Assembly (NCBI RefSeq): GCF_004403065.1
Contig: NZ_SOHA01000005.1
Coordinates: forward strand, 62,001 to 126,000
Direction: 5' to 3'
DNA: 64,000 nucleotides
Source: Cryobacterium cryoconiti
Lineage (GTDB): Bacteria > Actinomycetota > Actinomycetes > Actinomycetales > Microbacteriaceae
This document shows positions 43,183 to 44,651 of this stretch, piece by piece (position 1 is the first letter of the stretch; every line of letters begins with the position of its first letter). The notes under the pieces are model-generated. The model was given only the letters and a program-made list of their open reading frames with translations. It made no database searches and had not been told where the DNA came from. Made by a program: the position numbers and the translations under genes.

Positions 43183-43742
43183 CCTCGACCGCCATGCAGC
43201 AGCTGTACCAGCAGATCATCCTGGACCACGCCAAGGCCCGCCACGGCGCCCCGGCGGAGGGTCTGCCGCCGCTGGAGGCGGCCGGCAGGGTCGATCCGGC
43301 CGCTGCCGGCCTGCGGGTGACCGAGTCGCACCAGGTGAACACGACCTGCGGCGACGAGGTGACCGTGCGTATCGGCCTGCGCGCCGCCGACGAGTCCGGC
43401 ACGTCAGCCGGTGAGTCAGCCGGTGACGCGATCGGCGACGCGATCGGCGACGAGGTCGGCGACGCCGTGATCGAAGAGTTCGCCTGGGCCGGCGACGGAT
43501 GCTCGATCTCCATGGCCTCGGCATCCGTGCTGCACGACACCGTACGGGGCGAGAGCGTCGCCACGGCGCGGGCACTGCTGGACACCTACCGCGAGATGCT
43601 GCGCTCCCGCGGCACCATCGAACCCGACGAGGAGGTTCTCGGCGACGCCGCCGCCTTCGCCGGTGTCTCCCGCTACCCGGCTCGCGTCAAATGCGCCATG
43701 CTCGCCTGGGTGGCGTTCGAGGCGGCCCTGCTCGCGGAGTAG
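43179..43742 (+). CDS. sufU: Iron-sulfur cluster assembly protein SufU
   Basis: 187 aa. Zinc-dependent partner that takes the persulfide from SufS. Conserved Cys are in NTTCGDEVT, GDGCSIS and RVKCAMLAW. Compared with usual SufU it has an insert (about 70-97) encoded by four 12-base tandem units (43422-43469) reading GDAI, GDAI, GDEV, GDAV. Confidence 0.93.
   Translation: MTSTAMQQLYQQIILDHAKARHGAPAEGLPPLEAAGRVDPAAAGLRVTESHQVNTTCGDEVTVRIGLRAADESGTSAGESAGDAIGDAIGDEVGDAVIEEFAWAGDGCSISMASASVLHDTVRGESVATARALLDTYREMLRSRGTIEPDEEVLGDAAAFAGVSRYPARVKCAMLAWVAFEAALLAE
43422..43469. repeat. 12-bp tandem repeat inside sufU
   Basis: Four in-frame copies of GGCGACGCGATC with changes encode a Gly-Asp-Ala-Ile/Val run in a loop between conserved cysteines. 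Confidence 0.85.
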
Positions 43743-43771
43743 CCGACGCGGTTCCCTCCCGCGGCCCGTCC

Positions 43772-43816
43772 GCGAGTTCCGCGAGTTCTGCGAGTTCTGC
43801 GAGTTCTGCGAGTTCC
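43772..43816. repeat. 9-bp tandem repeat downstream of sufU
   Basis: Five copies of GCGAGTTCY in a row in non-coding DNA, just before the large hairpin at 43824. Confidence 0.9.
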
Positions 43817-43823
43817 GCTATCT

Positions 43824-43884
43824 CGCGAGAGCGCACAATCTGCCCCTTGGCGTGCGCCGAAGGGGCAGATTGTGCGCTCTCGCG
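43824..43884. terminator. Perfect 25-bp hairpin between sufU and the guanidine riboswitch
   Basis: Arms 43824-43848 and 43860-43884 are exact reverse complements, with an 11-base loop. There is no T-run. It probably ends the sufSU transcript and may belong to a dispersed family of intergenic palindromes. Confidence 0.55.
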
Positions 43885-43966
43885 GGGGGTGGGGTCCTGG
43901 AGTCGGGCTGCTGAGGTCTTGCTCAGGATCGACCGCTACGGTGGGGGCAAGTCGCCAGAGGCGGCT

Positions 43967-44007
43967 CCGGACGACGGTTCAGTACCCGGCACGCGACAAG
44001 ACTGGCC
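43967..44007 (+). promoter_or_regulatory. Guanidine-III riboswitch (ykkC-III) upstream of the SugE/Gdx exporter
   Basis: A 41-base segment with the invariant blocks CCGGACGA (43967-43974), ACCCGG (43984-43989) and ACAAGAC (43996-44002), the same order and total length as the structurally known Thermobifida fusca RNA, recalled from memory. CCGG can pair with CCGG (P1), and CAGT (43979-43982) with ACTG (44001-44004) as the pseudoknot helix. The 3' end abuts GGGAG (44010-44014), the ribosome-binding site of the exporter, so ligand binding probably frees or blocks translation. The riboswitch class senses guanidinium. Confidence 0.9.
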
Positions 44008-44022
44008 ACGGGAGTCGTAGTC

Positions 44023-44346
44023 ATGTCGTGGATCATTCTCATTCTGTCCGGGGTTCTGGAAGCCGTCTGGGCCACCGCCCTGGGCAAGTCGGAGGGGTTC
44101 ACGCGACTGTGGCCATCCGTCGTTTTCGCGGTGGCGCTCGTGCTCAGCATGGGCGGGCTCGCCTTCGCTATGCGGGACATCTCGACCGGCACCGCCTACG
44201 CCGTCTGGGTCGGGATCGGCGCGGCGCTCACCGTGCTCTACGCCATGGTCTTCGGTGCGGAGCCGGCCTCGCTGATCAAGGTGCTGCTCATCGTCGGCCT
44301 GGTGGGCTGCGTCGTCGGTCTGAAATTCGTCGACGCCTCGCACTGA
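44023..44346 (+). CDS. sugE: SMR-family guanidinium exporter (Gdx/SugE type)
   Basis: 107 aa from ATG 44023, four membrane helices. Gdx features: Glu13 (the proton/guanidinium-binding carboxylate) and Trp16 in SGVLEAVWA, and GTAYAVWVGIG in helix 3. It works as a dimer exchanging guanidinium for protons. The riboswitch directly upstream supports guanidinium export over general quaternary-amine resistance. Confidence 0.93.
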   Translation: MSWIILILSGVLEAVWATALGKSEGFTRLWPSVVFAVALVLSMGGLAFAMRDISTGTAYAVWVGIGAALTVLYAMVFGAEPASLIKVLLIVGLVGCVVGLKFVDASH

Positions 44347-44651
44347 CCTCCGGTGCCGTGCGCCCCGCGGCGTGTGCCCCGCGCCGCGGCGCACCTTATG
44401 GAAGCCGGCGCACGGTACATCATGCGCCCGCTTCCACAGGGTGCGCCGCGAGGTGGTGAGGCGTATATTCGACGTGTAAAAAGCGAATAGTCACTGAGGA
44501 GTTCCGGCCACGATTCGCGCCCACCGCTTCGCCTGCGGTCGGCACTCCGCCTCGGAAGCAGTCCAGATCGTCATCCGTCGGGCGCGGGATCCTCGACCGT
44601 GGCGGCTTCCAGATCTGCACTCCACCAGCGCCTACAAGGAGGCGTTTCACA
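44347..44651. other. Non-coding stretch between sugE and the VOC gene
   Basis: It holds a large hairpin (44386-44449) and a dyad TATTCG-N12-CGAATA (44465-44488) next to an AT-rich patch, CGTATATTCG, that may contain a -10. No gene is supported here. Confidence 0.6.
44386..44449. terminator. Large hairpin after sugE
   Basis: GCGGCGCACC/GGTGCGCCGC, then GGAAGC/GCTTCC, then GCGCA/TGCGC form three stacked stem parts separated by small internal loops. There is no T-run. Confidence 0.55.

Follow-up and report, generated by a model that had tools for sequence, protein, structure and literature searches.

The window, by which we mean the whole 64,000-nt stretch of DNA that was analysed, carries a Guanidine-III (ykkC-III) aptamer of 41 nt (43967-44007, + strand) ahead of a gdx-type gene (44023, ATG, to 44346, TGA, + strand) for a predicted SMR guanidinium exporter of 107 aa. 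The genes sufS and sufU lie upstream of gdx, and a VOC/glyoxalase-like gene lies downstream. This arrangement of predicted riboswitch and gdx is a typical case within a published class, located on a gene type known for it; SMR genes near guanidine riboswitches are described in the same arrangement in PMC7695847 and PMC8492726.

The Guanidine-III aptamer and the exporter gene

RF01763 (Guanidine-III) was matched by cmscan at 43947-44010 on the + strand over the full model (1-67), with 54.3 bits against a gathering score of 36 and an E-value of 1.9e-8 for the window against the 4227 families of Rfam 15. This was the sole Rfam match at gathering thresholds in the whole window, and the 3.43-Mb genome held no second match at E <= 0.001. 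An earlier note, made from the letters of the sequence, had placed a 41-base segment of this class at 43967 and had named an Rfam covariance-model scan as a check; its coordinates are exact, and the scan came out well above the curated cut-off. The RNA at 43947-44010 is a genuine Guanidine-III riboswitch of an already known kind.

The core letters CCGGACGA...ACCCGG...ACAAGAC follow in this order within 43967-44007 (+), and a 5' hairpin that is part of the Rfam model (43950-43966, +) abuts the aptamer. We follow the nomenclature of Huang et al. 2017 (PMC5696562), in which the pseudoknot helix, formed by nt 1-4 and 21-24, is called P1; in the window this helix is CCGG:CCGG. The hairpin helix P2 is CAGU:ACUG, with a 5' strand that ends in CAGU at 43983 and a 3' strand that runs from A at 44001; it holds one U-G pair and, by eye, a bulge. 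The binding core is intact, with the CG dimer in ACGA, G17 and the conserved ACAAGAC of the third strand all present; the roles of these bases are given in PMC7736828 and PMC5696562. A Shine-Dalgarno-like GGGAG (44010-44014, +) lies 2 nt beyond the aptamer, which bears out the earlier placement of the aptamer immediately before the ribosome-binding site, and the ATG follows 15 nt beyond the aptamer end. Folded as a single strand without pseudoknots, 43944-44040 gained no stability over its shuffles (z -0.69, with 50 of the 200 shuffles equally stable), and folding energy by itself therefore lends the aptamer no support.

The window aptamer shares the H-type pseudoknot core of the Thermobifida fusca structure 5NWQ, and it has in common with the Guanidine-III class the conserved ACGA, UACCCGG and ACAAGAC and a place upstream of a gene start. 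The pseudoknot helix had been thought to form with bases unlike those of Thermobifida. This did not hold: P1 of the window has the same letters as T. fusca P1, CCGG:CCGG, and it is P2 that differs in sequence from the Thermobifida helix and that has the bulge. The Shine-Dalgarno sequence lies 2 nt from the aptamer in the window compared with 16 nt in T. fusca (PMC5696562).

The 107-aa protein scores 77.9 bits with PF00893 (SMR), for which the Pfam cut-off is 23.7, and it is 91% identical over its length to a Cryobacterium sinapicolor protein, so that the genome is most likely one of Cryobacterium or of a close relative. All of the Gdx residues E13, W16, S42, Y59 and W62 are present, among them the Glu13 and Trp16 that the earlier note had named. 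The best PDB match of the exporter is 6wk5 (E 6e-20), the structure of Gdx-Clo, and both 6wk5 and 8vxu stand ahead of the EmrE entries. The five binding residues are common to the window protein and the Gdx/SugE subtype of SMR proteins (PF00893), such as Gdx-Clo, and their roles in Gdx are described in PMC7695847. The NCBIfam SugE equivalog NF008512 scored 89.6 bits, below its curated cut-off of 126, and the protein is therefore named a Gdx-type SMR and not SugE under that equivalog. By its binding-site residues the downstream protein is assigned to the Gdx subtype, and guanidinium would be its substrate.

An SMR protein could also export other cations, such as quaternary ammonium compounds, with guanidinium acting merely as the inducer. 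Qac-type NCBIfam models do match the exporter, all of them far under their cut-offs, and PMC12186494 mentions Gdx proteins that confer tolerance to quaternary ammonium compounds. Position 16 argues against this reading, as W is conserved there in Gdx while Gly or Ala is found in Qac proteins (PMC7695847), and so do the ranking of the solved structures and the fact that this protein was the only SMR match found in the genome. We consider export of other cations very unlikely and retain guanidinium as the predicted substrate. An SMR relative in another locus (L314, 20001-20315), 76.5% identical over residues 1-81, is carried on a mobilizable Kocuria rosea plasmid.

Occurrence and covariation among relatives

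Of the 199 family genomes sampled, 100 have an RF01763 match at E <= 0.001 (93 above the cut-off), and these represent 52 of 85 genera; in the taxonomic class, 175 of 394 genomes have one (168 above the cut-off). After the remaining family loci had been fetched, the family set comprised 100 loci in all. When loci were fetched with nothing but the exporter protein as the query, 77 of the best 80 had a GACGA...TACC motif no more than 130 nt upstream of the start, and it is absent upstream of the other three (L073, L076 and L089). The spread through the family bears on whether the window aptamer is degenerate, that is, a sequence match that does not bind guanidinium and leaves the exporter constitutive. 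The U-G pair and the bulge in P2 would fit such decay; against it stand the unbroken letters of the conserved core, a score well above the cut-off and the matches in 52 of 85 sampled genera of the family. Degeneration is extremely improbable, and the aptamer is predicted to bind guanidinium; PMC5696562 cites an affinity of 60 uM from Sherlock et al. 2017.

Helix arms were readable in 173 of 177 leaders (L230, L250, L251 and L074 were dropped), giving 68 distinct arm combinations. The pseudoknot helix occurs in relatives as CCGG:CCGG, GCGG:CCGC, UCGG:CCGA, CUGG:CCAG and CCCG:CGGG. Its pair 1 (CG 55, GC 8, TA 3, unpaired 2) was paired in 66 of the 68 combinations, where shuffles averaged 49.0 and never exceeded 56, and pairs 2-4 are too invariant for the shuffle to test. 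In the hairpin helix, pair +2 (CG 33, AT 28, TG 1, unpaired 6) was paired in 62 of 68 against a shuffle mean of 31.7 and maximum of 45; pair +3 was paired in 58 against a maximum of 51, and pair +4 in 55 against a maximum of 41. The two innermost hairpin pairs (65 of 68 paired) did no better than shuffled ones and vary too little to test. Both aptamer helices, P1 and P2, covary in the sequences of the relatives. Covariation, as the earlier note had suggested, is thus upheld among homologues, but within the window the pseudoknot helix is the common CCGG:CCGG, and the difference from Thermobifida is limited to the hairpin helix.

Some relatives have another gene behind the RNA. In eight of the 100 family loci (L192, L201, L221, L228, L237, L238, L248 and L251) the gene after Guanidine-III encodes a small membrane protein (about 85 aa) in place of an SMR. 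In other families this protein was also found in L282, and in L301 by its N-terminus only, with the frame departing after the first residues. The two proteins that were scanned (L201 and L251) score as the CBU_0592 family, NF047864, of NCBIfam. A Pfam scan of this small membrane protein family gave nothing at 1e-3, and the family name CBU_0592 was not found in the literature searched. The CBU_0592-type protein behind Guanidine-III is possibly another guanidine transporter.

Other relatives have a changed aptamer core. The core GACAAGAC is shortened or GACGAC-like in L228, L237, L238, L248, L247, L252, L044, L046 and L067, and likewise changed in L261, L262 and L282; the helices seem to be kept, by eye. 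The genes behind these aptamers are of the SMR and CBU_0592 types, and in L261 and L262 they are, by eye, isochorismatase-like. Changed-core aptamers may have either lost their function or changed their ligand specificity. Variants with GACGAC-like cores in place of ACAAGAC were considered as a possible separate class; a pattern search for them listed 45 places, of which 4 were aptamer-like by eye, and the 4 genomes with these aptamers also have RF01763 matches. In L181, from a small (1.4 Mb) relative, a tandem SMR pair lies behind one Guanidine-III RNA with an exact two-box promoter of the kind described below. In the Gordonia effusa leader (L074, near 2930-2990), the CCGG and ACAAGAC parts of the aptamer are separated by about 30 additional nt.

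Predicted pairing around the start codon

Published work on related riboswitches describes an ON switch whose H-type pseudoknot is stabilised by guanidine. In the account of Huang et al. 2017, the fold is probably stabilised when guanidine binds, so that the ribosome-binding site becomes exposed, and the mechanisms of guanidine classes II and III are called 'less well established' (PMC5696562). A review predicts translational control for the class and, with reference to Richards and Belasco 2021, adds that the mRNA is protected against RNase E (PMC12186494). The earlier note had described control in the window as translational, and this would be its predicted mode.

Thermodynamic prediction for the ligand-free leader gives a helix around the start codon (43992-44030, +), in which CGCGACA (43992-43998) pairs with UGUCGUG (44024-44030) and GACUG (44000-44004) pairs with UAGUC (44018-44022). 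The ACAAGAC third strand and the P2 3' strand would in this way sequester GUC-AUG-UC, the start codon and its flanks, as long as no ligand is bound; once it is, the third strand would be held in the pseudoknot and the start codon released. In the predicted ligand-free fold of the window, pairing of the start region with ACAAGAC reaches 0.87, the last two AUG bases and the three preceding bases are paired, and GGGA lies in a loop (unpaired 0.93-1.0). The ligand-bound state was modelled by enforcing P2 and withholding the pseudoknot strands. In this model the AUG opens in part (unpaired 0.95, 0.50 and 0.62), the three bases before it open (0.75-0.92) and GGGAG becomes partly paired. The ligand-free fold lies 13 kcal/mol below the constrained fold, which receives no credit for the pseudoknot, triplex or ligand, and switching would therefore probably have to be co-transcriptional. 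Published probing found both helices intact without ligand (PMC5696562), which counts against a ligand-free fold that opens P2.

The start region was compared between leaders and other genes. The SMR start was readable in 165 of 177 leaders, with non-SMR genes and unreadable cores dropped, and these gave 153 distinct leaders; as controls, a crude filter on codon position picked 111 starts that belong to other genes and have a Shine-Dalgarno-like sequence (20 from the window and 91 from named loci). The three bases next to the start are GTC in 92 of the 153 leaders and in 4 of the 111 controls. The base at -1 is C in 141 of 153 leaders compared with 51% of control starts. Serine at codon 2 is encoded by TCN in 86 leaders and by AGY in 1, while AGY makes up 291 of 1007 serine codons elsewhere in the same genes and 8 of 17 codon-2 serines in the controls; because the leaders are related, the contrasts are inflated. 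GTC is absent from 61 of the 153 leaders, and codon 2 is GCN in 47, which breaks half of the start pairing. A later set of 30 loci of the taxonomic class from other families (22 SMR starts, 7 of another gene and 1 unread) showed a weaker bias, with GTC before 8 of the 22 SMR starts and absent from 14. Counted by genus label, 27 of 39 have at least one locus with GTC (four MAGs being lumped as one label).

In ligand-free folding of the leaders, ACAAGAC is the main partner of the start region (0.37 of its total), which is unpaired at 0.26; in a slightly wider count, this pairing was 0.43 against 0.13 in local shuffles, and it exceeded 0.3 in 93 of 153 leaders against 18 in shuffles.

The switch may instead act mainly by exposing the Shine-Dalgarno sequence or by shielding the mRNA from RNase E, the start-codon pairing being incidental. 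Both mechanisms are given for the class in PMC12186494, and the aptamer ends only 2 nt before GGGAG. The predicted ligand-free fold, by contrast, leaves GGGA in a loop and pairs the start codon, and the excess of GTC before the start over the controls is also at odds with an incidental role. We regard this alternative as quite possible, if somewhat short of an even chance. Start-codon sequestration as the OFF state is likelier than Shine-Dalgarno sequestration in these models, and we hold it to be about evenly balanced between right and wrong. It makes a precise and mutable prediction for the Guanidine-III mechanism. Pairing of GGGAG with the CUCC before the pseudoknot strand was also considered as an anti-Shine-Dalgarno helix and was dropped, as relatives with GCGG seem, by eye, to lose the pairing.

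The putative promoter element and the genomic surroundings

In the 100 family loci, the aptamer is preceded at a distance of 26-38 nt by a NANNNT hexamer, whose A and T are fixed by the anchoring; in the window this hexamer is the putative -10 TACGGT (43937-43942, +). Upstream of it are two direct boxes, TGCTGAGG (43909-43916) and TGCTCAGG (43920-43927), 11 bp apart (together 43909-43927, +), which form a putative transcription-factor site. Across the family loci the boxes TGNNCAGG stand at -28 and -17 from the -10, with almost no information upstream of them. Of 99 distinct family loci, 45 have both boxes at this fixed offset with a match of 4 of 5 or better; other offsets gave at most 3 loci, and 54 loci have no clear boxes. 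None of 41 named loci of other actinobacteria (from 77, minus 32 Microbacteriaceae and 4 MAGs) had boxes at the fixed offset. The exact two-box pattern matched 17 times in 199 genomes, 13 times directly upstream of a Guanidine-III match, and the remaining 4 matches are near the level of the reversed control (5 matches). This pattern is strict and recovers just these 13 from the 100 loci of the family; among them, the match in L228 has a different gene behind it.

In the window genome, the gdx site was the only match of the box pattern with no more than one mismatch. A search for a box regulon in that genome with up to two mismatches gave 25 matches against 26 for the reversed control, so that only the gdx site, with 1 mismatch, stands out. 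The two-box element appears nearly confined to the guanidine-exporter unit and is possibly the site of a transcription factor. The geometry of the gdx boxes, with 7-bp cores and an 11-bp period, resembles that of sites of OmpR/PhoB-type regulators. No conserved regulator gene was found beside gdx within 3 kb in 80 loci and the window: the three largest neighbourhood clusters consist of gdx and overlapping frames, one (21 loci) of frames that run into the gdx start, and the other clusters have at most 10 loci each, all unannotated, so that a regulator shared by few loci could be missed. A sigma-70 promoter scan of 43700-44500 gave no consensus match. A limited literature search found no description of the element, which is a feature of the window leader beyond the arrangement of SMR genes and guanidine riboswitches given in PMC7695847 and PMC8492726.

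With a transcription start about 7 nt beyond the -10, near 43949, the riboswitch would lie at the very 5' end of the mRNA, which is probably short and covers a single gene. In the presence of guanidinium, the gene for a Gdx guanidinium/proton antiporter would be turned on. We are strongly confident in this explanation, in which a Guanidine-III riboswitch at the mRNA 5' end serves as the guanidinium ON switch of the Gdx antiporter. In Microbacteriaceae, transcription would start just upstream of the riboswitch from a two-box promoter nearly dedicated to the gdx unit, and on account of this near dedication a transcription factor would probably add a second control. Control in this family may accordingly have two layers, an almost gene-specific transcription factor on two TGNNCAG boxes with an 11-bp spacing, and a riboswitch in which the conserved aptamer strand is also the anti-start-codon strand and nucleotides are thus shared between aptamer and platform; we put this joint scheme forward tentatively and think it rather less probable than not. 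The promoter boxes and the start-codon pairing are both leads from comparison; if the boxes are real, guanidine export would also be under protein control.

A palindrome like TGGTACnnTnGTACCA overlaps the gdx -10 in L069, L081, L082, L086, L087 and L030, mainly Rhodococcus relatives. It may be a repressor site, distinct from the two-box element.

Between sufU and gdx lies a 25-bp perfect palindrome (61-nt hairpin; 43824-43884, unstranded) that belongs to a dispersed hairpin family. About 15 paired copies occur in the genome, and both arms often differ together. Among 60 genomes searched (its own included), 15 have palindrome half-sites, all 15 in the source genus; the sample held 37 genomes of the source genus, the rest being from other families, with no other genus of the same family. 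A U-tract terminator scan of 43700-44500 gave no result, and the window palindrome has no terminator-type T-tract. Crude gene calling, which overlooked sufU in the window, put the end of an adjacent gene no more than about 90 bp from the position of the copy in 8 of 13 examined copies, and on this basis the palindrome is probably a terminator and would insulate gdx. Between sufU and the palindrome, 43769-43818 holds five to six copies of a 9-bp unit, TCYGCGAGT.
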